In this document: in pieces, positions 11,511 through 36,323 of the stretch
How positions within the stretch are numbered: position 1 is the stretch's first letter
Layout of the letters: the number at the start of each line of letters is the position of its first letter
Notes under the pieces: generated by a model
What the model saw: only the letters and a program-made list of their open reading frames with translations
What the model was told of the DNA's origin: nothing
The model's database searches: none
Program-made: the position numbers and the translations under genes
Assembly: GCA_024277115.1 (NCBI GenBank)
Contig: JAJRVW010000038.1
Location: forward strand, 1 to 38,935
Length of the DNA: 38,935 nt
Direction of reading: 5' to 3'
Source of the DNA: Calditrichota bacterium
GTDB lineage: Bacteria > Calditrichota > Calditrichia > Calditrichales > J004

Positions 11511-14399
11511 ATGAGCGTAGATATCGAAATAAAAGATGATTATCAAAAAAGACATATTGGCTCACGTGGCGCTGATGTGGAAAAAATGTTGCAAACCATT
11601 GGCGTGGATTCAATCGACGAGCTTATTGACAAAACTGTACCCGAGAATATTCGGCTAAAAGAACCTATGGCCGTTGCGCCCGGTAAATCGGAGTTTGCTT
11701 TTTTACGGGAATTAAAACAGGTTGCCCAAAAAAATAAAATCTATAAAACCTATATCGGCATGGGTTTTTATGATACGACTGTGCCGAGCGTCATTTTAAG
11801 AAATATTCTGGAAAATCCCGGTTGGTACACGCAGTACACGCCATACCAGGCCGAAATTGCCCAGGGCCGACTGGAAGCTTTGCTTAATTTCCAGACCATG
11901 GTAATGGACTTAACCGGGATGGATATTGCCAATGCCTCTTTATTGGACGAAGCGACATCGGCGGCCGAAGCGATGACCATGTTGTACCGTTTACGCAAAG
12001 GGCCGCAGGTAAAAGCCGGGGCCAATGTGTTTCTTGTTTCGGATAAAATTTTCCCACAAACCATTGATGTACTTAAAACACGTTCGGTGCCTTTAAATAT
12101 TGAATTAAAAATCTGCCCGCCCGGGGAATTTGAGTTTGATGAAAAAGTTTATGGTGCGATTGTGCAATTTCCCAACGAGGATGGCTCCATAGAAGATAAC
12201 AGCGCATTGATCGGAAAGGCCCATGAAAATAATATAAAAGTAGCGGTGATTGCCGACTTACTTAGCCTGACTTTATTAACGCCGCCGGGCGAGATGGGCG
12301 CGGATGTGGTTGTTGGCTCGACCCAACGTTTTGGCGTACCGCTTGGATATGGCGGGCCGCATGCCGGATATTTCGCCACAAAAGACGCACACAAACGGCA
12401 AATCCCCGGCAGGATAATCGGGGTTTCGATTGACCGCCACGGCAACCCCGGTTATCGCATGTCGTTGCAAACACGCGAGCAGCATATCCGTGGTGAGAAG
12501 GCCACTTCAAATATTTGTACGGCACAGGCTTTGTTGGCGATCATGGCCGGGATGTATGGTGTGTATCATGGGCCGGACGGGTTAAAAACGATCGCGGCGC
12601 GCATACACGGTTATACAAATATTTTGGCAGATGAGCTCCGGACCCTTGGATACACATTATCCGGCAATAATTATTTTGATACAATCGCAATCCGTCATGA
12701 AAACCTTGTAATTGATAAGGTGGAAGAGCTGTTTGAAGCACATCATATAAACGTACGCTTTTTTGCCGATGGGCGTATAGGCATTTCTTTGGATGAGACC
12801 ACCCGTTTTCCGGATGTACATGATTTGCTTAATGTTTTTGCCAAGGCTGCCGGCAAAGAATATCATTCCATTGCCAGCAGTGTATTTAATGTGGCACTGC
12901 TTTCATTTTCCGAAAACTTAATCCGAAAAAGCGCTTTTATGCTGCACCCGGTTTTTAACAGTTTTCACTCGGAAACAGAGATGATGCGCTACATCAAAAA
13001 ACTGGAGAACAAGGATTTGTCGCTCAATACGTCAATGATTCCTTTGGGCTCCTGCACGATGAAACTGAACCCGGCAACATCGATGATGCCGGTGAGCTGG
13101 CCGGAGTTTTCGCAGTTGCATCCCTTTGTCCCCGCGGCACAGGCAGAAGGATATCACGAGTTGATCGAAGATATGAGCCAAATAATTTGCAAGGTGACAG
13201 GATTGAAGGCCGCCTCTCTGCAACCCAACTCCGGCGCGCAGGGCGAATATGCGGGCTTGATGACCATCCGGGCATATTTTGCGGATAAGGGCGAGGCGCA
13301 GCGTAATGTTGTTTTAATTCCTTCTTCCGCGCATGGCACTAATCCGGCAAGCGCAAGTTTGGCGGGCATGAAAGTTGTGATCGTAAAATGTGATGAACGC
13401 GGCAATGTGGACGTGGCCCATCTTCGTGAAAAGGCGGAACTGCATAAAAATGAATTGGCCGCTTTTATGATCACTTATCCGTCCACACACGGCGTTTTTG
13501 AAGAGAGCATCACAGAAATGCTTGAGATTATTCACGAAAACGGCGGACAGGTTTATATGGATGGCGCCAATATGAACGCGCAGGTTGGCCTTACCAGTCC
13601 GGGAACAATTGGGGCGGATGTGTGCCATTTAAACCTGCATAAAACTTTTAGTATCCCGCATGGTGGCGGCGGGCCGGGAATGGGGCCGATTGCCGTGGCC
13701 GGGCACCTTGCACCGTTTTTACCGGGGCACAGCCAGGTTAAAACCGGTGGGGAAAAAGCCATCACCGCGGTTTCTGCAACGCCGTTTGGCAGTAGCAGCG
13801 TTTTGCCGATTTCTTATGCCTATATGAAAATGCTGGGCGGGACGGGAATGAAGGCGGCCAGCGAATTTGCCATCTTAAATGCCAATTATATCCGCGCGCG
13901 TTTAAGCGATTATTATCCTGTACTTTATAAAGGGAAAAATGGTTTTGTAGGCCATGAAATGATCATCGATTTACGCTCGTTTAAGGAGGCCGGTATCGAG
14001 GTGGACGATATTGCCAAGCGCCTGATTGATTATGGCTTTCATGCGCCGACTGTGGCCTGGCCGGTACATGGCACAATGATGATCGAGCCAACCGAAAGCG
14101 AATCGAAGCAGGAATTGGACCGTTTTTGTGATGCGTTGATTGCCATCCATCAGGAAATGGAGGATTTAAAATCAGGTAAACTGGACCGGGAAAACAATGT
14201 TTTAAAAAATGCGCCGCATACTGTGGCCGAAGTAACCGGTGATTCCTGGGAACATCCATACACACGGGAACAAGCGGCTTTTCCTTTGCCTTATGTGCGG
14301 GAAAATAAATTTTGGCCGGCGGTGGCGCGGGTAAATAACACGCATGGCGACCGTAACCTGGTTTGTTCCTGTTTACCTGTTGAGAGTTATGAAGGTTAG
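11511..14399 (+). CDS. gcvP: Glycine dehydrogenase (decarboxylating), P-protein
   Basis: A 962-residue single-chain P-protein of the glycine cleavage system. It is the PLP enzyme that decarboxylates glycine and transfers the aminomethyl group to lipoyl GcvH. Both fused halves are present. The N-terminal half has KTYIGMGFYDT and TPYQAEIAQGRLEALLNFQT. The C-terminal half has IPLGSCTMKLNPA, QPNSGAQGEYAGL and SAHGTNPASA. The PLP lysine is K711 in NLHKTFSIPHGGGGPG. Length is typical of the fused form (950-970). The start at 11511 has AAGGA. No gcvT or gcvH is adjacent. The TAG stop sits at the edge of a hairpin repeat (14399-14418). Confidence 0.97.
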   Translation: MSVDIEIKDDYQKRHIGSRGADVEKMLQTIGVDSIDELIDKTVPENIRLKEPMAVAPGKSEFAFLRELKQVAQKNKIYKTYIGMGFYDTTVPSVILRNILENPGWYTQYTPYQAEIAQGRLEALLNFQTMVMDLTGMDIANASLLDEATSAAEAMTMLYRLRKGPQVKAGANVFLVSDKIFPQTIDVLKTRSVPLNIELKICPPGEFEFDEKVYGAIVQFPNEDGSIEDNSALIGKAHENNIKVAVIADLLSLTLLTPPGEMGADVVVGSTQRFGVPLGYGGPHAGYFATKDAHKRQIPGRIIGVSIDRHGNPGYRMSLQTREQHIRGEKATSNICTAQALLAIMAGMYGVYHGPDGLKTIAARIHGYTNILADELRTLGYTLSGNNYFDTIAIRHENLVIDKVEELFEAHHINVRFFADGRIGISLDETTRFPDVHDLLNVFAKAAGKEYHSIASSVFNVALLSFSENLIRKSAFMLHPVFNSFHSETEMMRYIKKLENKDLSLNTSMIPLGSCTMKLNPATSMMPVSWPEFSQLHPFVPAAQAEGYHELIEDMSQIICKVTGLKAASLQPNSGAQGEYAGLMTIRAYFADKGEAQRNVVLIPSSAHGTNPASASLAGMKVVIVKCDERGNVDVAHLREKAELHKNELAAFMITYPSTHGVFEESITEMLEIIHENGGQVYMDGANMNAQVGLTSPGTIGADVCHLNLHKTFSIPHGGGGPGMGPIAVAGHLAPFLPGHSQVKTGGEKAITAVSATPFGSSSVLPISYAYMKMLGGTGMKAASEFAILNANYIRARLSDYYPVLYKGKNGFVGHEMIIDLRSFKEAGIEVDDIAKRLIDYGFHAPTVAWPVHGTMMIEPTESESKQELDRFCDALIAIHQEMEDLKSGKLDRENNVLKNAPHTVAEVTGDSWEHPYTREQAAFPLPYVRENKFWPAVARVNNTHGDRNLVCSCLPVESYEG

Positions 14400-14418
14400 G
14401 GCGTATGGCAATACGCCC
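14399..14418. repeat. Hairpin repeat at the gcvP stop codon
   Basis: GGGCGTAT (14399-14406) and ATACGCCC (14411-14418) pair perfectly with a GGCA loop. The first G is the last base of the gcvP TAG. The motif resembles GTAGGGGCGTATTG-type palindromes that I recall from many bacterial genomes. With no T-tract after it, it is a repeat that may double as a transcript end. Confidence 0.6.
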
Positions 14419-24737: not shown

Positions 24738-24796
24738 GTGCTTAGGAAAGCACCCAGCCAATTTCAACGGTAGGAGCTGACTCCTGTCAGCGAATT
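24738..24796. repeat. Inverted copy of dispersed repeat modules A and C
   Basis: GTGCTTAGGAAAGCAC (24738-24753) is a 6-bp hairpin and reads as the reverse complement of the module at 29484. CGGTAGGAGCTGACTCCTGTCAGCGAATTA (from 24768) is the reverse complement of the 29603 module. It lies in the divergent lptF/addA promoter region (24589-24846). Confidence 0.6.
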
Positions 24797-24846: not shown

Positions 24847-27800
24847 TTGGGCTTAACACAATCACAACAAGCCGCACTGGCACTGGATAAAAATATCAGC
24901 GTGACGGCTGGCGCCGGATCAGGCAAGACGCGTATTCTAGTCGATCGGTTTCTTAAGATCGCCATGGGGCAACCACAGCTTACGCGGCATATTGTGGCCA
25001 TCACTTTTACGGAAAAAGCTGCCGGAGAAATGCAGGAACGTATCGCCCTGGAGGTAAATGCACGTTTAAGTTCTTCCGGGATTGATGCTGGCGAAAGAAA
25101 AAACCTGCAGCACATTCGTGATCAGATTAACTCGGCACATATTTCTACCATTCATGGATTTTGTATGCGTATCTTGCGCGAATTTCCTATCCAGGCCGGG
25201 GTAACGCCGGATTTTGGCATTCTTGATCCCATTCGTTACCAAGTGCTTTTGGCCGGGGCGATAAAAGATATTTTTAAAGAACTGGACAGGGAAGCCCTCG
25301 ATGATAAGGAGAATGACTGGTTTTTATTGTTCACTTCATTATCCCGAAGCCGGGTGCAGGAAATGCTGGAAGCTGCTTTGCGTAAACCCTTTGAATCAAG
25401 TCAACTAATGGCGGATTTTAGCGACAGGTCAAAAGCGGAATACCTTGATTTTTTGAGTGAAAAATGGTTGGCAATAATTGGTACGATAATAAAACACGAA
25501 GACCTGCAAAATGCCGCCATGCGAATCGATGAAGTCTTAAACCATGATACCCTGAGTGTGAAAAATGAAAAAGGGGAGGTGGCGCAAAAAGTCTTACAGG
25601 ATTTTCAAAAAGAATTTTCGGCTAACCCGGATTCCTTAAAATGCCGCGCCACTTTTTTAACCCTTGCCGAAACTTTTACCACCGGAAAAGGCGACGCTTA
25701 TAAAAACCTGTCTCAAATCGGTAAAAATGAAAGTTGGGCGCCGGGCGTACGGTCTTTCCTTTTGGAGTTAAGCCGGTTTCTGGAGCCGCTTCAAAAACAA
25801 ATAATTAGGCTAAAACCGGGGCAGGCGCCGGGCAAAACGGATGCGCTTTGGTACGATTTGTTTAGCCTGTTCATAAAATTATACGAGCGTGTGAGGGCAA
25901 AATTTTGGGAGGTGAAAAGCGAACAGGGCGTTTTGGATTTTGAAGACCTGCAAATTTTTACCCTTAACCTGCTGCGCGATAATGCTGAAATCCGCGAAAA
26001 ATTACATCAGCGCTTTCGTTATATTATGGTGGATGAATTTCAGGATACAAACCCGGTCCAATGGGAAATTGTAGAATTACTTGCCACGGAAAATGACCGG
26101 CTTGCAACCGACCAGGTTTTTGTAGTGGGCGATCCCAAACAGTCTATTTATGGTTTTCGTGAGGCGGATATCCGCATCTTTAAAAATGTGGTGCAGCGTT
26201 TTTCTGATGAGGCGGACAGCCAGTCTGCCGATCTTTATCCCGGCAATATTGTCTTCCGGGAGAGCTTCCGTTTTGTGCCGCAAATAAATGCTTTTATAAA
26301 CCACTTCTTTGGGATGATTTTAAACGACGAGGGTCATAATCCGTTTGAGGTTGGCTACCAAAATCTGGCTGCACAGCGTAATGTGCCGCAGACAGGTGCC
26401 ATTGAACTGGCCGTTTTTGACGAAGCGGACGAGACACTCTCCGAGCCGGAGTATATGGCCCGAAAAATAAAGGATCTAATTGAAAACAATGCCAGTGTTT
26501 ATGAGTGGGATGGAACAGAAGAGAATCCGCGCCCGATGCGGTTTGGTGATGTTGCCATTTTAATTCGTGATCGCTCCAAACTGCAAAATATTGAGCAGGC
26601 CTTCCGAAAAAATAATGTACCTTTTAAAACTGTAGGCGGCGTGGGGTTTTGGAAACGCCAGGAAATTTATGACTTTTACCATATCTTACGTTTTCTGGCC
26701 AATCCGACGGATGATTTTGCTTTTGTGGCGATGCTCCGATCGCGGCTTCTGCTTTTGCCGGATACAACTCTTTTTTTCCTTGGTGAATTAGACGGGGATT
26801 TTTTAGAACGTCTTAAAAAATTGCAGGACGATCCGCGTTTGTCCCAATCGGATCAAAAGGAATGCCGGCGTGTGGCCGCTTTGTTCGATCGCTGGCTGGG
26901 GATGCGCGAGCGTGTTACTTTGGGCGAATTGCTGCACACAATCACAGAAGACACACATCTTTTTGCCCGCTTAAACAGCGAATTTAGTGGCGATCAGCGT
27001 ACGGCCAACCTGAAAAAAATTATTGAGCTCGCCGATAATTTTGATCAATCCGGCCCGGGCGGTCTAAGCGCGTTTTTAGAGATGGTCGATGATTTGATAA
27101 ACCGTGAAGTAAACGAAGGCGATGCGCTCCTTGCGCTGGAAGATACGGGCAGTGTAAAGATTATGACCATTCATGTTTCTAAGGGATTGCAATTTCCCAT
27201 GGTGTTTACACCGTTTCTTAACCGTTCGATGCGTGGCAGCAGTACGGATGTTTTGCTGGACAGGGAACTGGGCATGGGCATTTCGTTTAAGGGGGAAGAG
27301 GAAGATGAAAGTTTGGGCGACAGCACCTTGTTTAACCTTTTACGCATCCGTCAAAAACAAAAAGAACTGGCCGAGCTGAAGCGAATTTTTTATGTTGCTG
27401 TTTCGCGCGCCAGCGATGGATTGTATCTCTCGGCCACTGTTAAAAATGAAAAAAGTAAAAATGACAGCATGTTCCAATGGCTGGAGGAGTGCCTGGTTCG
27501 TGAGGGCAAATCGCCATATCAGCCTTATCTTTATAAATATGACAGCTTTAATTTGGAAATTATTAATTCTTATAGAGGGACGGATGAAGAGACAGAACAT
27601 GCGCCGGGTTTTACAAAAATGATGGATTCGTTACGGGCGTTTAAATCAATGCAGGCTTTGGAAACCCCGCCGATAAAAGTTGCCCGGCCATTAAAAACAT
27701 CAGCCCAACCCCGAATTTTTTCCGCAACGGTATTAATGATTTTTAAACAGGACCCTCAAGAATATTACCGCCGCTATCATCTAGGTTATTTTGAAGGGGA

Positions 27801-28407
27801 TTATAAAAAAATTGTAGTAAAAAAGGATGATCAGAAAATTGATAGCCTCTTGAAAGGGAAAATAGTGCACCGCTATCTTGAACTGCACAATCCGGATGAA
27901 AAAAATCCGCAGGCTCTGATGGATAAAATCTTGTTTGAATATGAAATTTATGATGCAGACACAGCGGCGTTATTGATAAGGGAAATGGAAAATATTCTGG
28001 CCCGAATGCAAAAATCGCCCATTGGGCAACGTATTTTAAACGCGCCGGAAACCCAAAACGAACTTTCCTTAACCATGCAACTGGGCGATGATTTTTTTAC
28101 GGGCACAATCGATCGATTGCAAAAAAACGGGCAGGGCGAATGGGCCGTTTTTGATTATAAGACCAACCGGATCAGCGAAGCACAGCTTGAAGAAGCCGGG
28201 GACGCATACAAAATACAGATTGAGTCGTATGCTTTGCTGCTTTCGCGATTATATCCCGGCCAGACAGAATATAAAGTTTCCCTCTATTTTTTAGTTGTGG
28301 ACCGGTTGTACGAAAAGGTATTTTCTCAAAAAGAGGTCGATGAGATTAATACGCGGTTTGAGGAAATTATCCGGGAAATAAAACAGAAATTTCCCATTGC
28401 GGGGTAG
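24847..28407 (+). CDS. addA: AddA-type UvrD-family helicase-nuclease
   Basis: A 1186-residue protein, close to Bacillus AddA. Start TTG 24847 with AAAAGGA. Superfamily 1 helicase motifs are all present: Walker A GAGSGKT (22-28), motif II VDEFQDT (about 395), GDPKQSIYGF (about 427), TIHVSKGLQFP (about 774) and IFYVAVSRASDGLYL (about 848). A RecB-type nuclease domain closes the protein: TIDR (about 1088), DYKTNRI (about 1101) and QIESYALL. AddA works with AddB to resect double-strand breaks. No addB is adjacent, as both neighbours are other genes. It could pair with a distant AddB or act as a stand-alone relative. Its TAG stop abuts a dispersed repeat. Confidence 0.88.
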   Translation: MGLTQSQQAALALDKNISVTAGAGSGKTRILVDRFLKIAMGQPQLTRHIVAITFTEKAAGEMQERIALEVNARLSSSGIDAGERKNLQHIRDQINSAHISTIHGFCMRILREFPIQAGVTPDFGILDPIRYQVLLAGAIKDIFKELDREALDDKENDWFLLFTSLSRSRVQEMLEAALRKPFESSQLMADFSDRSKAEYLDFLSEKWLAIIGTIIKHEDLQNAAMRIDEVLNHDTLSVKNEKGEVAQKVLQDFQKEFSANPDSLKCRATFLTLAETFTTGKGDAYKNLSQIGKNESWAPGVRSFLLELSRFLEPLQKQIIRLKPGQAPGKTDALWYDLFSLFIKLYERVRAKFWEVKSEQGVLDFEDLQIFTLNLLRDNAEIREKLHQRFRYIMVDEFQDTNPVQWEIVELLATENDRLATDQVFVVGDPKQSIYGFREADIRIFKNVVQRFSDEADSQSADLYPGNIVFRESFRFVPQINAFINHFFGMILNDEGHNPFEVGYQNLAAQRNVPQTGAIELAVFDEADETLSEPEYMARKIKDLIENNASVYEWDGTEENPRPMRFGDVAILIRDRSKLQNIEQAFRKNNVPFKTVGGVGFWKRQEIYDFYHILRFLANPTDDFAFVAMLRSRLLLLPDTTLFFLGELDGDFLERLKKLQDDPRLSQSDQKECRRVAALFDRWLGMRERVTLGELLHTITEDTHLFARLNSEFSGDQRTANLKKIIELADNFDQSGPGGLSAFLEMVDDLINREVNEGDALLALEDTGSVKIMTIHVSKGLQFPMVFTPFLNRSMRGSSTDVLLDRELGMGISFKGEEEDESLGDSTLFNLLRIRQKQKELAELKRIFYVAVSRASDGLYLSATVKNEKSKNDSMFQWLEECLVREGKSPYQPYLYKYDSFNLEIINSYRGTDEETEHAPGFTKMMDSLRAFKSMQALETPPIKVARPLKTSAQPRIFSATVLMIFKQDPQEYYRRYHLGYFEGDYKKIVVKKDDQKIDSLLKGKIVHRYLELHNPDEKNPQALMDKILFEYEIYDADTAALLIREMENILARMQKSPIGQRILNAPETQNELSLTMQLGDDFFTGTIDRLQKNGQGEWAVFDYKTNRISEAQLEEAGDAYKIQIESYALLLSRLYPGQTEYKVSLYFLVVDRLYEKVFSQKEVDEINTRFEEIIREIKQKFPIAG

Positions 28408-28691
28408 GAACACTTTTTTCTTTCACTACGGAGGCGCAGAGTGTACCGAGCAACAGCATTTATTATTTTTACTCTCGTTGCTTTTTGGAATTGAGCGTAT
28501 TTTTTTTGACCTAATCAAGGCGTGTGCACAAAGGAGATAGGAGTGTTTTCGAAGCAGGATAAATTTATTGATCACAAAAATCGAATTCTGAAAGGGCCTG
28601 AAACTTACTAAGAATTAAACTAATTAAAAACTAGTGTATTCTTGTCCTCAGTGGTTAATACTTTAATTGCAAACAGGAGTTGGCTCTTACC
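28404..28691. repeat. Composite dispersed-repeat block 1
   Basis: It fills the gap between addA and the SDR gene. It holds module E (CACTACGGAGGCGCAGAG, from 28424), module A (GTGTTTTCGAAGCAGGATAAAT, near 28544), module B (TAATTAAAAACTAGTGTATT ... GGTTAATA, 28621-28660) and module C (GCAAACAGGAGTTGGCTCTTACC, 28669-28691). The same modules recur at 29480 and 32756. No gene. Confidence 0.65.
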
Positions 28692-28750
28692 ATGTACGCG
28701 AACAACTTCTCAGTACAATGAATCCATGAAATTTAATTATTGGAGGAAAA

Positions 28751-29482
28751 ATGGAAATCAAAAATAAAACCGCCGTGATAACCGGCGGCGCAATTCGCTT
28801 GGGCCGTGCTATTTGTATTGATTTGGCAAAGGCCGGCGCTAATATTTTTTGCCAGTATTTTTCCAGTGATGAAGCGGCTACTTCACTTGTTAATGAAATA
28901 AAATCAATGGGTGGCAAAATTAAAACATTTAAAATTGATTTGACCGGGGAAGGCGCCATTGCTAAAACGACTGAAGAAGCTCAAAACACTTTTGGGCAAA
29001 TTGATATTTTGGTAAATAATTCAGCCTTGTTTTATCCGACACCTGTCGGGAAAGTTACTGAGAAAGATTGGAATACATTTCACGAGTTAAATTTAAAAGC
29101 CGCCTTTTTCCTTTCGCAGGAGGCTGGCATGCTGATGAAAAAGCAAGGCAGCGGCAGGATTATCAGCATCGGTGATATTTCTTTTGAATCGCCCTGGCCC
29201 GATTTTTTGCCCTACACACTTACCAAAGCGGGCATCAATACGATGACCAAAGGATTGGCCAAAGCCCTCGCCCCGCAGGTCCTTGTAAATTGTGTCAATC
29301 CCGGCCCGGTCCTTTTACCTGCGGATTATAATTATGAACAAACCGAAAAAGCGTTGGGACGGACACTGCTTAAAAGGGAAGGCACTCCAGATGATATCGC
29401 CAAAACAGTACGTTTCCTGATTGAATCTGAGTATATTACCGGCGCTTCCATTCCTGTGGATGGTGGCCGGCATATTGGGTAG
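28751..29482 (+). CDS. Pteridine-reductase-like SDR oxidoreductase
   Basis: A 243-residue short-chain dehydrogenase. NADPH-binding TGGAIRLGR (residues 11-19) resembles the TGxxxRxG form of pteridine reductases, and NNSALF follows at 89-94. The catalytic pair is Y155 and K159 (PYTLTKAG). Where classical SDRs carry serine, 13 residues before the tyrosine, this protein has D142 (IGDISF), as in Leishmania PTR1 (Asp181/Tyr194) and FolM. SPWPDFLPYT is also typical. It probably reduces dihydropteridine or dihydrofolate compounds with NADPH; a general carbonyl substrate is possible. GGAGG lies 4 bases before the ATG. The TAG stop lies at the edge of a repeat. Confidence 0.8.
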   Translation: MEIKNKTAVITGGAIRLGRAICIDLAKAGANIFCQYFSSDEAATSLVNEIKSMGGKIKTFKIDLTGEGAIAKTTEEAQNTFGQIDILVNNSALFYPTPVGKVTEKDWNTFHELNLKAAFFLSQEAGMLMKKQGSGRIISIGDISFESPWPDFLPYTLTKAGINTMTKGLAKALAPQVLVNCVNPGPVLLPADYNYEQTEKALGRTLLKREGTPDDIAKTVRFLIESEYITGASIPVDGGRHIG

Positions 29483-29628
29483 AAGCGCTTTCCTAAGCGC
29501 GAAATAATCTTCGAGCACGGGAGTCAATTCCTGCAAGGGCATGAAAATTACTGCGAATTAAAAACTCTGTGTATTCTGTGTTCTCAGTAGTTAAGATTTC
29601 AATCGCAGACAGGAGTCTGCTCCTACCG
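29480..29628. repeat. Composite dispersed-repeat block 2
   Basis: Module A (GTAGAAGCGCTTTCCTAAGC, then GCGAAATAATCTTCGAGCAC) starts in the SDR stop codon. Module B (AATTAAAAACTCTGTGTATT ... AGTAGTTAA) covers 29556-29594. Module C (CGCAGACAGGAGTCTGCTCC, then TACCGG) covers 29603-29628 and contains the TAG stop of the minus-strand gene at 29623. Whole intergenic region 29483-29622 is repeat. Confidence 0.7.
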
Positions 29629-32600
29629 GTTATCCTGCACCACGGCCAGTTTCATAATTTTGTTGCCAATGTGTGGCATATCCAAATGAACGATGTAAAT
29701 GCCGCTGGCCACTGCTTTGCCGTCTATGTTGCGCAAGTCCCAATCCAGCCAGGGCGATGTGTTGTCTTTCTCTATTTTTTGCACCAATTGGCCGGAGATT
29801 GTAAAAATACGTACAACAACATTTTGCGGCAGGGAAGTAAATCGGACAAAATTTTGATTGGGAAAACGTCCAAAGGGATCCACACCAAAATAGGGATTGG
29901 GAAAAACAGAAATCCGGTCCAGCTTTTTCTTCGCCCCGATCATATCTGCGGTGTCCGGCGCGCTGGTGGCAAAAGTGAAAACATCGTCTTTTGTTAAAGA
30001 GCGCCATGTATCAATTTGTATAACCGTCCCTTCTTCGGGTAACTCACCTTTTAATGTAAAACGTCCAAATTTATGCAATCCCCTGGGTTTATTAGAAAAG
30101 CCCGATCTATCCGGTAAAGGTTCCTGGTAGATGCTATCTTTTGGGTAATAGGCAAAAATTTGTTCCCACTCATCAGGATGATAAGGGTCATCTTTCGGGA
30201 AATGCGACCAGGTACTGTCTGGAATAGCTGCATTAGAATCGCTATTATTAAAATCAAGTATTTTTATTATGAGCTGCTGGTCATCATCTTCACTATCAAG
30301 GTCTTCCCCCAACGTCCATATTTCAAATGGGACACGGTCTGCGGCTTTAGGGTCATCTTTTAAGGGCGCAGTGGTAGCGAATCCCGCAGCGTATCCCGTT
30401 AAATAATATTCACTCCCATTTTCGGTAAAACGTATCTCATACTTTTCACGGCCGGGATCATGGTAATTTTCTGTTAAATCAACACGTGTGTCTCCATAAA
30501 ATCCCGGATCTATAATCTCCCACTTGTTTGTAGAGTTCAATCCTTTGATTATATTTACCGGAGTGCTAAGCTTTACCCCGCCAGGCCCGGATGTTTCTAA
30601 AACGGATTTGATACCACTCGATAAACTATTAAGGCTGTCCAGGCCTGTGTTTAAAATCTCAACTGTAAACCCCAAATCATAGAGAAGCGAATCAGAAAAT
30701 TTATTAAATACATCTTTATAATTTGTATTGGAGAAAAGTGTTTCGCCAAAAGCGTTCGTAATAGTTGCATTGGCACCCGCCCAAGAAGAATCTATTTGAA
30801 TGGTAAACGTATCAATTTTAATAATAGAGGGGTCTTCAATTTTTACAATAATTTCGCCATCACCATAACCTTTACTATGCTTGACCAAAACCCTGTTATT
30901 AGCTTCATAAGGCGAAGTAGAGTCGATGCGGTTTTGCCCGGGGATAACTTCGATGATGGCCGGTTTACTTTCCTTAAAACGAGTGGGACTCTTCTTGGAG
31001 TATACGTAACTTGTTAATCCAAAAAAATAAGGTGAGCCGTTACTTAAACCACTTTCAGTGTAACGATCTTTATCGATAGTTATGCTGTGTTGCAGGCCAA
31101 TATTGGGGCTGGTAAATAATGTAACCTCAGAAACATCACCTTTAATAAAAGTGAAATCCCTAATTTTTGAGACATCATTCTTGAGGTCAAAAATATCTAA
31201 TAAAACAGGTTCAGAGCCCCTTTTATCTTTGAATTGCCAGAGACGATAACCTTCAAACAACCAAGCTGAATCTTCTTCGGCCTTGTGTGACAAAATAGGA
31301 TCGGTTTCTGTGTAACTTTCCACATTATTGTCCCAAAAAAGTTTAATTCTCTTATCTTGTGGATGCGCTTTTAAGACAGGTGGTGGTGGGTTTATTTCCC
31401 TGAAACCTTTATCAAAATAGGTTTGGGCATAAACGGCCATATCACGCACAACGCGGATACCATCAACATTGTTTTCTCCCTGGCCGACCATAATCGCATA
31501 GGTGATTTCCTGTGTATCGCCCGGTGCAAAGGTAAATGGGCCGGCATTCATATTAAAACGGCGGTCATCGGGGTATTGTCCCCATGCGCCCGGGCCCAGG
31601 CCTTCAAACCAACCTGTTTGTGTTATGGGGTCACCAGCAATAGGAAATAATGTGGTGTCTCCTTCGGGGTTTACAAATGGATCGCCATCACCTGTAAGAC
31701 CATTCATTTTATTATACTCTCCAATTGTATTTTCGTATGACCTTAGGGGAGGATCAGGTGCAGGCCCACTCCACGGCTTTGGTATATAAACGAAAAATGA
31801 AGTCCATTTTTTCCCATTGGTTAATACAGGGCTTTGTAAAAAAGTATAACCTACCACGGGAGGCGCTTCTCCATAGATATAGTCATTATTTTTGCCATTA
31901 AAACAAAAACCTAAATCGAGTGTTGTATCACAACCAACATAATCATCTCCTACATCCCCTAGGTCAGGATCGCTCCAAATACTGATGTACATGGAATCAA
32001 TTAAGTTTGAACCTTTATTGATCAGCCGTATTTTTTTAAAAATGGTATTTGATAAAATGTTATATCGTTTGTAGCCCCAAACCGTAGTTTGTTGTTCGAT
32101 GCCCAGAGGATAGCTGCCATACAAATTAATTGTTCTTGCTGTATCCAGGTCATTGGAAACAAACCATAACATTTCATCGCCGATAATATCGGGTTTATCA
32201 ACTCCGCGAGTGAAGCGGCCATCACCATTCACATCAATCCAGGGCGCACCGTCTTCAACAGGCCACTCTTCATAATCTTTTTGATAGGCATCGCGGACAG
32301 GGCCCGGGCTGAGATTTTGCCAATCTTTAAAAACTTTATAGACACGATAGCGTGGATTCTCTGAATTGTCGGCTAAGCCATTCTCAAGGATTTTACCAGC
32401 TTGTAAACCATGGTTATATGCACTGCCACCGATCTGGATTTGTATACTATCCGGCAGGGAGCGGTTGACCCCGCCCCAAAGAAAACCATCTTCATAAATG
32501 GCTGTTTTACCGCTGCCGGCAGGCCATTCAAACCCCGCTCCTTGTGTTGTGGGATTGTATGAACCATCACCTGTATTGCTTACCCACATCAAAATATTAT

Positions 32601-32724
32601 TTACGCCTATATAGTCGTATACATCGTTTGTGTTGATCTTTGATAATTGTTTTATGCCTGCAATTTTGAAGGAGAAAATTATAATAGTTGTAAAACTAAT
32701 TAGAAGCATAAATGTTTTTTTCAT
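29623..32724 (-). CDS. Large secreted protein with T9SS-like tail, paralog 1
   Basis: A 1033-residue protein with a signal segment (KKTFMLLISFTTIIIFSFKIAG). The mature N-terminus has NILMWVSNTGDGSYNP and GAGFEWPAGSGKTAIYEDGFLWGG, followed by a calcium-site-like DVNGDGRFT and large beta-rich regions. A fibronectin-like middle (KLFWDNNVESYTETDPIL) precedes a C-terminal domain (RISVFPNPYFGVDPFG ... VVRIFTISGQLVQKI ... SGIYIVHLDM) that matches type A T9SS sorting domains. Proteins with this architecture recur as surface or secreted proteins in Calditrichota and Ignavibacteria, with unknown function. A paralog lies directly upstream; the last 237 residues differ at only 8 positions. The GSGKT string is not a Walker site in context. 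Confidence 0.75.
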   Translation of the reverse strand: MKKTFMLLISFTTIIIFSFKIAGIKQLSKINTNDVYDYIGVNNILMWVSNTGDGSYNPTTQGAGFEWPAGSGKTAIYEDGFLWGGVNRSLPDSIQIQIGGSAYNHGLQAGKILENGLADNSENPRYRVYKVFKDWQNLSPGPVRDAYQKDYEEWPVEDGAPWIDVNGDGRFTRGVDKPDIIGDEMLWFVSNDLDTARTINLYGSYPLGIEQQTTVWGYKRYNILSNTIFKKIRLINKGSNLIDSMYISIWSDPDLGDVGDDYVGCDTTLDLGFCFNGKNNDYIYGEAPPVVGYTFLQSPVLTNGKKWTSFFVYIPKPWSGPAPDPPLRSYENTIGEYNKMNGLTGDGDPFVNPEGDTTLFPIAGDPITQTGWFEGLGPGAWGQYPDDRRFNMNAGPFTFAPGDTQEITYAIMVGQGENNVDGIRVVRDMAVYAQTYFDKGFREINPPPPVLKAHPQDKRIKLFWDNNVESYTETDPILSHKAEEDSAWLFEGYRLWQFKDKRGSEPVLLDIFDLKNDVSKIRDFTFIKGDVSEVTLFTSPNIGLQHSITIDKDRYTESGLSNGSPYFFGLTSYVYSKKSPTRFKESKPAIIEVIPGQNRIDSTSPYEANNRVLVKHSKGYGDGEIIVKIEDPSIIKIDTFTIQIDSSWAGANATITNAFGETLFSNTNYKDVFNKFSDSLLYDLGFTVEILNTGLDSLNSLSSGIKSVLETSGPGGVKLSTPVNIIKGLNSTNKWEIIDPGFYGDTRVDLTENYHDPGREKYEIRFTENGSEYYLTGYAAGFATTAPLKDDPKAADRVPFEIWTLGEDLDSEDDDQQLIIKILDFNNSDSNAAIPDSTWSHFPKDDPYHPDEWEQIFAYYPKDSIYQEPLPDRSGFSNKPRGLHKFGRFTLKGELPEEGTVIQIDTWRSLTKDDVFTFATSAPDTADMIGAKKKLDRISVFPNPYFGVDPFGRFPNQNFVRFTSLPQNVVVRIFTISGQLVQKIEKDNTSPWLDWDLRNIDGKAVASGIYIVHLDMPHIGNKIMKLAVVQDNR

Positions 32725-32755
32725 GATTTTATCTCGCTTTAGAGCTAAAATTTAT

Positions 32756-33009
32756 CGTAAACAGGAGACTGCTTCTACCCAGAAAAGTAGAAGCGTTTTC
32801 GAAGCACGAAATATTCTTCGATCACCGGAATTAATAGAATTAAAAACTCTGTGTATTTTGTGTCCTAAGCAGCTAATAGTGACTGCGCTTGCTAAAAGCA
32901 CTTTTTTTTACCACGGAGGCAAAGAGTACACCGAGGAACATCTTTGTTTTAAACTCTCGGTACATTCAGGTATTGAGTATTTTTTCGCAAACCGGAGTCT
33001 GTTCCTACC
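32756..33009. repeat. Composite dispersed-repeat block 3
   Basis: In order: module C (CGTAAACAGGAGACTGCTTC, 32756-32780), A (GTAGAAGCGTTTTCGAAGCA then CGAAATATTCTTCGATCAC, from 32788), B (AATTAAAAACTCTGTGTATT, near 32836-32876), E (ACCACGGAGGCAAAGAGTAC, from 32910) and a second C (CGCAAACCGGAGTCTGTTCC then TACCGG). The final C holds the stop codon of the gene at 33005. It separates the tandem paralogs. Confidence 0.7.
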
Positions 33010-36000
33010 GGTTATCCTGCACAATGGCCAGTTTCATGATCTTATTGCCGATGTGCGGCATATCCAAATGAACGATGTAAATGCCGCTGGCCACTGCTTT
33101 GCCGTCTATGTTGCGCAGGTCCCAATCCAGCCAGGGCGAGGCGTTGTCTTTCTCTATTTTTTGCACCAATTGGCCGGAGATTGTAAAAATACGTACAACC
33201 ACATTTTGCGGCAGGGAAGTAAATCGGACAAAATTTTGATTGGGAAAACATCCAAAGGGATCCACACCAAAATAGGGATTGGGAAAAACAGAAATTCGGT
33301 CCAGCTTTTTCTTCGCCCCGATCATATCTGCGGTGTCCGGCGCGCTGGTGGCAAAAGTGAAAACATCGTCTTTTGTTAAAGAGCGCCATGTATCAATTTG
33401 TATAACCGTCCCTTCTTCGGGTAACTCACCTCTTAATGTAAAACGTCCAAATTTATGCAATCCCCTGGGTTTATCAGAAAAGCCCGATCTATCCGGTAAA
33501 GGTTCCTTGTAAATGCTATCTTTTGGGTAATAGGCAAAAATTTGTTCCCACTCATCAGGATGATAAGGGTCCTCTTTCGCGAAATGTGACCAGGTACTGT
33601 CTGGAATAGCTGCATTAGAATCGCTATTATTAAAATCAAGTATTTTTATTATGAGCTGTTGATCATCATCTTCACTATCAAGGTCTTCCCCCAAAGTCCA
33701 AATTTCAAATGGGACGCGAGCTGTAGCTTTGGGGGCATCTTTTAATGGCTCCGAATTTATGAAACCTCCACTGTAACCTGACAGGTAGTACTCACTGCCC
33801 TTTTCAGTAAAACGCATCTCATACTTTTCTCTCCCAGGGATTATTCTACTGCTATATTTTAAATAATCACGCGTATCAAAATAAGAGAGTTGGTTATTGT
33901 CCGGATTTATAATCTCCCATTTTTTTGTTGAGTTTACCCCCTTAATAATATTTACCGGACTACTAGGCTTTACCCCGCCAGGACCGGATGTTTCCAAAAT
34001 AGATTTAATACGGCTTGATCGCCCATCGAGGCTGTCCAAACCGGTATTTAAAATCTCAACTGTAAATCCTAATTCATAGAGAAGCGAATCGGAAAACAAA
34101 TTGAATACATCTTTATAATTAGTGTTGGATGAAAGTAGTTCACCAAAATCGTTTGTGATGGATGCGCTAATATCAGCTTGTGTGGAATCTAAGAATATGG
34201 TGAAGGTATCAACTTCTACCAGCGAGGGGTTTTCTATCCGCACAATAATAGCACCATCCCCATAACCCTGGCTATGTTTAACTTCTATTCTGCCATCATC
34301 ACCATAGGCCGGGTTATAATCGATACGGTTTTGGCTGGGGATAACTTCGATAATGGCTGGTTTACTTTCTTTAAAACGGGTGGAACTCTTTTCTGAGTAA
34401 ACGTAACTTGTTATCCCAAAAAAATAAGGTGAGCCATTACTGAGATCATTTTCGGTGTAACTATCTTTATCGATAGTTATACTGTGTTGCAGGCCAATAT
34501 TGGGACTGATAAATAATATAATATCAGAATTTCCACCATTAATAAATGTATAGTCCCTAACTTTATTAATATCATTATCCAAGTCAAAAATACTTAATAA
34601 AACCGGGTCCGATCCGTTAAGATCGCGATATTGCCAAAGGCGGTAACCCTCAAATAACCAGGTTGAATCTTCTTCGTTTCTGTATTGTAAAATGGGATCG
34701 GTTTCAGCATAGCTTTCTGAACTGTTATCCCAAAAGAGTTTGATTTTTTTATCTTGTGCAAGCGCTTTTAAAGTAGGGGAAGGTGGGGTTTTTTCTTTGA
34801 AATCCTTGTCAAAATAAGATTGTGCATTAACAGCCAGGTCCCTTACAACACGTATACCGTCAATATTATTTTCACCCTGGCCAATTACGATGGCATAAAC
34901 GATCTCTTGTGTATAGCCAGGCGCAAAGGTAAATGGCCCGGAGTTTATATAAATGCGCCGATCACCAGGAGGTACGCCCCAACTATTTGGCCCTTCATAC
35001 CAGCCTGTTCCCGTAATCGGATATCCCGATAGTACATAAGTTACAGTATCTCCTTGAGGGTTTACAAACGGGTCTCCATCATCGGTCACACCTCTTAGGT
35101 AATTATAAATTAATTCTGGCACAGGAGGTGGTTCAGCAGGAAATGAGCTCTGTATTAAAGGTCGAAAAGAGGTCATCTTCTTACCGCGATTCTTTCCAGG
35201 TGCTTTAATAAAAGTGTAAGCTATAACCGGTGGGGCCTCACCATAAACATTGTCAAAATTACTGGCATTAAAAGAAAATCCTAAATCAAGAGTTGTATCG
35301 CATCCTACAAAATCATCGCCGGCACCTCCTAAATCCGGGTCGCTCCAAATACTGATGAACATGGAATCAATTAAATTTGACCCCTTGTTGATCAGTCTTA
35401 CTTTTTTATAAACGATATTTGTAAGATCGTTGTTACTGGCAAAACCCCATACGGTAGTTTGTTGCTCGATACCTAATGGCGAGCTGTTAAACAACCTTTT
35501 TGTTCTTGTAGAATCCAGATCATTGGCCACAGACCAGAGCATTTCGTCGCCAAGAATGTCGGGTTTATCAACTCCGCTTGTGAAGAGGCCATCGCCGTTT
35601 ACATCAATCCAGGGCGCACCGTCTTCGACAGGCCACTCTTCATAATCTTTTTGATAGGCATCGCGGACAGGGCCGGGGCTCAGGTTTTGCCAATCTTTAT
35701 TTATTTTATAGACACGGTAGCGCGAATTATTCGGGTCATCCGCATGTCCATTCTCAAGAATTTTACCGGCCTGCAATCCGCGGTTATATTTACTGCCGCC
35801 GGCCTGGATTTGTGTACTGTCCGGAAGTGAACGGTTAAGCCCTGCCCAGATAAATCCGTCTTCAAAGATGGCTGTTTTACCGCTGCCGGCAGGCCATTCA
35901 AACCCCGCTCCTTGTGTTATAGGATTGTACGAACCATCACCTGTATTGCTTACCCACATCAAAATACTATTTATGTTGATATAATCATAAGCATCATTGG

Positions 36001-36097
36001 TTGTCGTTTTACTAAGGCCTGTTTTAGGTTTGCCTTTAAAAGTGAATGAGAAGATAAAAAGAAGAATAAGAATAGAAAGGTAGTAAAATAATTTCAT
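33005..36097 (-). CDS. Large secreted protein with T9SS-like tail, paralog 2
   Basis: A 1030-residue paralog of the gene at 29623. The start is ATG 36097 (AGGAG, seven-base spacing), not the longer frame from 36154, because MKLFYYLSILILLFIFSFTF is a clean signal peptide. It has the same modules: SILMWVSNTGDGSYNP, GFEWPAGSGKTAIFEDG, DVNGDGLFTSG, a fibronectin-like region and a T9SS-like tail (RISVFPNPYFGVDPFG). The middle has diverged from paralog 1 by many substitutions and indels, while the tail and some N-terminal blocks are almost identical even in DNA. Likely secreted or surface-bound; function unknown. In the transcription direction this copy comes first, with 280 bases of repeat between them. 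Confidence 0.75.
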   Translation of the reverse strand: MKLFYYLSILILLFIFSFTFKGKPKTGLSKTTTNDAYDYININSILMWVSNTGDGSYNPITQGAGFEWPAGSGKTAIFEDGFIWAGLNRSLPDSTQIQAGGSKYNRGLQAGKILENGHADDPNNSRYRVYKINKDWQNLSPGPVRDAYQKDYEEWPVEDGAPWIDVNGDGLFTSGVDKPDILGDEMLWSVANDLDSTRTKRLFNSSPLGIEQQTTVWGFASNNDLTNIVYKKVRLINKGSNLIDSMFISIWSDPDLGGAGDDFVGCDTTLDLGFSFNASNFDNVYGEAPPVIAYTFIKAPGKNRGKKMTSFRPLIQSSFPAEPPPVPELIYNYLRGVTDDGDPFVNPQGDTVTYVLSGYPITGTGWYEGPNSWGVPPGDRRIYINSGPFTFAPGYTQEIVYAIVIGQGENNIDGIRVVRDLAVNAQSYFDKDFKEKTPPSPTLKALAQDKKIKLFWDNSSESYAETDPILQYRNEEDSTWLFEGYRLWQYRDLNGSDPVLLSIFDLDNDINKVRDYTFINGGNSDIILFISPNIGLQHSITIDKDSYTENDLSNGSPYFFGITSYVYSEKSSTRFKESKPAIIEVIPSQNRIDYNPAYGDDGRIEVKHSQGYGDGAIIVRIENPSLVEVDTFTIFLDSTQADISASITNDFGELLSSNTNYKDVFNLFSDSLLYELGFTVEILNTGLDSLDGRSSRIKSILETSGPGGVKPSSPVNIIKGVNSTKKWEIINPDNNQLSYFDTRDYLKYSSRIIPGREKYEMRFTEKGSEYYLSGYSGGFINSEPLKDAPKATARVPFEIWTLGEDLDSEDDDQQLIIKILDFNNSDSNAAIPDSTWSHFAKEDPYHPDEWEQIFAYYPKDSIYKEPLPDRSGFSDKPRGLHKFGRFTLRGELPEEGTVIQIDTWRSLTKDDVFTFATSAPDTADMIGAKKKLDRISVFPNPYFGVDPFGCFPNQNFVRFTSLPQNVVVRIFTISGQLVQKIEKDNASPWLDWDLRNIDGKAVASGIYIVHLDMPHIGNKIMKLAIVQDNR

Positions 36098-36323
36098 GTC
36101 AGGTCTCCTATATTTGCCCCGTAAGAAATTCGCAAAAAGAAAACATGAATACAAGATAATTAACGATATTTTACTAAGCTGTCATTTTTTCTTGTTAAAG
36201 GGTACTTTTAAAAAAAGAATAGATTCTTGAATCCGGTTTAGTTTATAATTTGATTGTTTTCCCTACATCGTTAATTTAGTTCTCATATTTTTAGACTTAT
36301 AAAATTCTACCGGAGAAAGCATC

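Follow-up and report, generated by a model that had tools for sequence, protein, structure and literature searches.

GTAG-tagged REPs often provide, through their termini, the TAG stop codon of flanking ORFs (Di Nocera et al. 2013, PMC3733652). The TnpA-REP of E. coli cleaves at a CT next to the REP, and GTAG acts as a recognition or guide motif (PMC8266576). According to other published work, REPs do not terminate transcription but stabilise the ends of RNAs (PMC13289151), and E. coli REPs located up to 15 nt from a stop codon can stall ribosomes (Liang et al. 2015, as recounted in PMC12306157). We analysed a stretch of 38,935 nucleotides (the window), which is contig C229 of the 4.97-Mb draft genome G000 of a Calditrichota bacterium and in which the original prediction had placed the TAG stop codons of five genes within dispersed repeats. 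We identify these repeats as GTAG-tagged REPs, most of which form head-out pairs (REPINs).

Two REP subtypes, GTAGGAGCWGWCTCCTGWCWGCGA and GTAGRAGCGCTTTCCTAAGCGCGA, were found in the scanned sequence. The consensus of type 1 was GTAGGAGC(T/A)G(T/A)CTCCTG(A/T)C(A/T)GCGA, with the stem GCTGTC/GACAGC and the loop TCCT, and that of type 2 was GTAGRAGCGCTTTCC(TA)AGCGCGA. In the 46 clean copies, the stems of which comprised 5-7 pairs, GTAG stood unpaired as the head of a short palindrome; it was preceded by a further G in 44 of them, indicating that the real head is GGTAG. The REPs were dispersed and nearly all intergenic (53 in 24 clusters in 1.15 Mb of G000), and they lay near gene 3' ends with a TAG able to serve as a stop codon. 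As listed in Table 1, a REPIN was present in the window at 29479-29626; in its predicted fold, both hairpins formed and the GTAG and CTAC ends paired with each other (z -1.7 and -2.6). Further head-out pairs were found on contigs C235, C173, and C202. A search of Rfam gave no match in positions 28000-33500 of the window.

Table 1. REPs, associated genes, and the gcvP palindrome in the window.
Feature	Position	Strand	Remarks
gcvP	11511-14399		ends in TAG
Palindrome GGGCGTATGGCAATACGCCC	14399..14418		unrelated to REPs; starts on last base of gcvP stop
Type-1 REP GTAGGAGCTGACTCCTGTCAGCGA	24770..24793	+	divergent intergenic region, away from any stop
addA-like UvrD/PD-(D/E)XK helicase-nuclease gene	24847..28407	+	ends in decayed REP head
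Decayed REP pair	28404..28690		GTAGGAAC head at addA stop 28405-28407; GTAAGAGC head at 28690 (-)
Short-chain dehydrogenase (SDR) gene	28751..29482	+	Pfam PF13561; ends in REP TAG
REPIN	29479..29626		head-out pair of GTAG-REPs that occupies the space between convergent genes; the TAG stop of each gene lies in one head
Type-2 REP GTAGAAGCGCTTTCCTAAGCGCG	29479..29501	+	TAG 29480-29482 is the SDR stop
Type-1 REP GTAGGAGCAGACTCCTGTCTGCG	29604..29626	-	TAG 29625-29623 is the paralog 1 stop
Paralog 1, 1033 aa, secreted-type	29623..32724	-	CHU_C-like C-terminus (weak)
Type-1 REP, degenerate	32756..32778	-	away from any stop
Type-2 REP, degenerate	32787..32809	+	intergenic; the non-coding copy of the original prediction
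Type-1 REP copy, partly decayed	32986..33008	-	TAG 33007-33005 is the paralog 2 stop
Paralog 2, tandem copy of paralog 1	33005..36154	-

Two other dispersed repeats were observed. One, ACCACGGAGGCAMAGAG.../CTCTGTGTATTCTGTGTTCTCAGTAGTTAA, lay inside or beside REPINs (28425 and 32910 in the window) and also at gene ends of the same-genus genome G001 (L083, behind the SDR gene; L150); a literature search with its sequence gave nothing. For the other, GTCATTCTGA...GAAGAATC, the word GTCATTCTGA was counted 43 times in the 1.15 Mb sampled from G000 and the reversed word 0 times; this repeat was also present in G001 behind addA and PRPP-like genes (L083, L104).

The five stop codons were of unequal standing. 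The SDR gene ended, as predicted, in the TAG of a GTAG-REP head. The TAGs of both tandem paralogs also lay in such heads, but CCGGTAGGAGCAGACTCC was not the palindrome, which the original prediction had captured only in part; this was GCAGAC-TCCT-GTCTGC, its stem following the unpaired GTAG head, and the copy at paralog 2 was not identical (CCGGTAGGAACAGACTCC, one base different). The addA stop did lie in repeat-like sequence, but in a decayed head that lacked the standard hairpin and had a degenerate partner. The TAG of gcvP did abut a palindrome, but a different one, which recurs in the genome as four further copies with at most 2 mismatches and has no GTAG head here, and gcvP was dropped as a REP-stop gene. 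Three clean REP stops remained, two of them in tandem duplicates. Because the paralogs remain 92% identical across the stop codon and the junction, the simplest reading is that the REP of paralog 2 appears to have been duplicated together with the gene; the two paralogs represent one tandem duplication and were therefore counted as one event. The 6.8-kb block at 29483-36323, which contains these two secreted-type paralogs (1030-1050 aa) between the SDR gene and a CsgG-like gene, was absent from G001 (C3, L083), and REPs lay at its SDR-side edge. The low-copy palindrome GGGCGTATTGCAATACGCCC (14399-14418 in the window) also occurred at C20:31335, C15:20135, C46:747, and C164:3077; one of its copies was about 45 bp away from a REP, and another was the one on the gcvP stop.

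REP-stop coincidences were counted against chance in 1.15 Mb of G000, which included all exact-pattern match sites and covered most of the repeat set (a near-census of clean, not of decayed, REPs). A simple purpose-written gene caller gave 802 genes in this sample, and gene names, including PPIase-like and MoaE-like, were assigned by eye unless a family search is cited. The heads of 7 of the 53 REPs (24 clusters) formed in-frame TAG stops, namely those of the SDR gene, both paralogs, and the PRPP-synthetase-like (C3), glycosyltransferase (C235), HD-GYP (C65), and allantoinase-like (C166) genes. When the REPs were slid by 4-300 bp, the mean number of coincidences was 0.03 and the maximum was 2 (P ~4e-15, the REPs being not fully independent). 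Fifteen REPs lay on the same strand as a gene and no more than 50 bp from its end, and seven of them were at offset -3 (P 4e-9 under a uniform distribution); the P value was 1e-7 with one paralog dropped. In G001, the TAG of 3 of about 10 REPs was a gene stop, one of them at a site shared with G000. The overlap between REPs and stop codons is thus real and far above chance. TAG ended 22% of the 802 genes (TAA 60%, TGA 18%) and GTAG 5.9%, so that intergenic REPs might meet stop codons by coincidence; this explanation is extremely improbable, and for random placement, which predicts 0.03 coincidences against the 7 seen, it is refuted. For GTAG words no more than 50 bp from a gene end, the share that were the stop itself was 34% in the non-REP class and 31% in the REP-like class, which indicates no extra preference of REPs over other 3'-end GTAG sites. 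However, for this comparison to account for the overlap, REPs would have to require a GTAG-like landing site; if the site must contain GTAG, nothing further is needed to explain the share of REPs at stops.

Comparison of sites with and without a REP suggests that REPs usually lie on an old stop codon and seldom alter the protein. The SDR ended in ..GGRHIG both in G001 (CGGCATATCGGG TAA) and in the window (CGGCATATTGGG TAG). The PRPP-like gene ended in AGG TAG in G000 and AGG TAA in G001 with identical end residues, and the HD-GYP gene ended in GGG TAG and GGA TAG, respectively, at equal length. A third paralog at C10 ended in CGG TAA compared with CGG TAG in the window, both proteins ending in ..VVQDNR. 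The reverse direction was represented by the PPIase-like gene, which had AAG TAG with a REP in G001 and CAG TAA in G000 at the same end residue. One residue distinguished the C-terminus of addA from that of its counterpart, and likewise the MoaE-like proteins of G001 and G000, where a REP lay 40 bp downstream. Two cases speak against an unchanged protein: the allantoinase-like gene stopped about 3 residues short of its best match in G001, and in the GlpA/GlpD-like gene C12:81415 of G001 (L135 5416) the REP was read in another frame, giving the C-terminal tail RVGAVS. The former would fit REPs that insert into coding ends and truncate proteins by premature stops, and any in-frame insertion within a gene would likewise place TAG at offset -3. 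Since the C-terminal lengths were equal at the other sites, or differed by one residue for addA and the MoaE-like gene, truncation is highly unlikely and was rejected as largely refuted. The view that the repeats supply stops holds in that the head now spells the stop; it does not hold for the origin of the stop, as the REP-free relatives already had one there or within about 3 codons. Insertion at gene 3' ends, as the original prediction had proposed, is supported by the enriched overlap, which a second species also shows, and by orthologs that are free of the REP and usually end at the same residue.

The other proposal, that the repeats are stop-plus-terminator units, was not upheld. No T-run followed any REP in the region, and the two terminator-like sites detected there (4.8 expected from the shuffled mean) did not coincide with a REP. 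Lacking a U-tract, the REP hairpins do not qualify as intrinsic terminators. Because the stem starts two bases behind the stop codon, the hairpin may slow translation termination, by analogy with the ribosome stalling that PMC12306157 recounts for E. coli REPs located up to 15 nt from stop codons. Functional stop-plus-terminator or stop-plus-attenuator units maintained by selection at gene ends nevertheless appear quite unlikely, given that terminator-like sites were fewer than the shuffled mean, that REP positions were not conserved (among the stop-overlapping sites compared, only the RAYT-linked copy was common to G000 and G001), and that REP-free orthologs had no replacement hairpin of the REP family.

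The REP pattern matched 45 sites in the whole of G000 and 11 in G001, compared with 8 and 6 for the reversed control; with the stricter GGTAG pattern, the numbers were 33 versus 2 and 8 versus 0. The latter pattern was nearly absent from 38 further relatives, in which only stray matches occurred. The REPs are confined to one genus among the 40 genomes searched, G000 included. Three Y1_Tnp genes were detected in G000, one of which lay inside a REP cluster at C235 (L033 9985-10863). Its product is a Y1/HUH protein of 165 aa (Y1_Tnp, 33 bits) with the RAYT motifs H-x-H and Y...NP (MPNHFHIL; YYDHAIR...YILNNP), and its only PDB match was E. coli TnpA-REP (4er8). REPs of both subtypes and orientations flanked the gene, the downstream one 2 bp after its stop. 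A search of genome contigs with this protein returned only distant Patescibacteria matches. In G001, a Y1 gene occupied the same place behind the same glycosyltransferase gene and the REP stem was CCATC instead of CTGTC, a difference to be expected should RAYT and REP change in step. The REPs were probably moved by the C235 RAYT, as its motifs and flanking repeats suggest. The two further Y1_Tnp genes were at C35:4542-4886 (L034) and C58:4437-4757 (L035), and one of them was a strong match (89 bits).

We consider it highly likely that the GTAG-REPs and REPINs are non-autonomous mobile DNA that is copied by a RAYT and gathers behind genes, where heads in register become stop codons. The RAYT would be a TnpA-REP, a Y1 HUH endonuclease related to IS200/IS605, and would copy REPs that each consist of an invariant unpaired G-GTAG head followed by a 6-bp hairpin. 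Copies would accumulate just behind genes because they do least harm there, and a head in register on an existing stop would make its TAG the new stop and leave the protein hardly changed.

A tentative and rather doubtful extension is that new copies join a pre-existing GTA or GGTA at the stop, as a retained target or by microhomology, converting NGG TAA into NGG TAG plus REP with the protein unchanged. The REP-free counterparts ended in TAA for the SDR, PRPP-like, C10 paralog, and PPIase-like genes and in TAG for the HD-GYP and MoaE-like genes. In three of these six, NGG TAA (GGTA) stood where the REP copy has NGG TAG, and GGTA occurs at 3.5% of gene stops. This suggests a landing preference, although the sample is small and REP loss in the relative, a conceivable alternative to insertion, would look alike. 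GGTA was shared in only three of six cases, and a pre-existing GTAG was not universal. Because four REP-free counterparts end in TAA, a full GTAG was not always present beforehand, and the rule that the target must contain one was abandoned. Moreover, cleavage at CT and the guide role of GTAG in E. coli do not predict a GTA target. If the proposal is true, RAYT-driven REPINs would land preferentially, and without harm, on NGG TAR stops, and the model would account for GTAG REPs supplying stops across bacteria.

A cluster of odd stop codons is thus explained by a known mobile repeat, and a REP/RAYT system is added that one genus has and the sampled relatives in its lineage lack. Paired sites with and without the repeat can reveal where RAYT-driven copies join the chromosome, and annotators should consider that TAG stops inside GGTAGGAGC may be repeat-derived. 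Compared with the GTAG REP superfamily (Di Nocera et al. 2013, PMC3733652), the repeats share the unpaired GTAG head, short GC stem, small loop, inverted pairs, sites behind genes, and TAG stops for flanking ORFs, but differ in their low copy number (about 50) and in having two subtypes with CTCC/TTCC at the loop. As in REPtron/RAYT systems (PMC2817692, PMC8266576), the RAYT is flanked by its REPs, has HUH and catalytic-tyrosine motifs, and matches the TnpA-REP structure in PDB; in contrast, the conserved CT, the E. coli cleavage dinucleotide, is missing just before the head, and the RAYT is known here by its sequence. Two head-out REPs form the likely mobile unit, and clusters also occur, as described for REPINs (Bertels and Rainey 2011, PMC3116915), whereas here the spacing of the pairs varies and the two arms are of different subtypes. 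The position of the hairpin within 15 nt of the stop resembles that of the ribosome-stalling E. coli REPs (Liang et al. 2015, cited by PMC12306157), a likeness at the sequence level. Because it had been stated before that TAG stops are often provided by GTAG REPs (Di Nocera et al. 2013, PMC3733652), the REP-stop overlap is a new instance, in a new lineage, of an ordinary and known mechanism family. The present analysis adds a test against slid positions, a second occurrence in a sister species, and REP-free sites for comparison at which the C-termini are unchanged.
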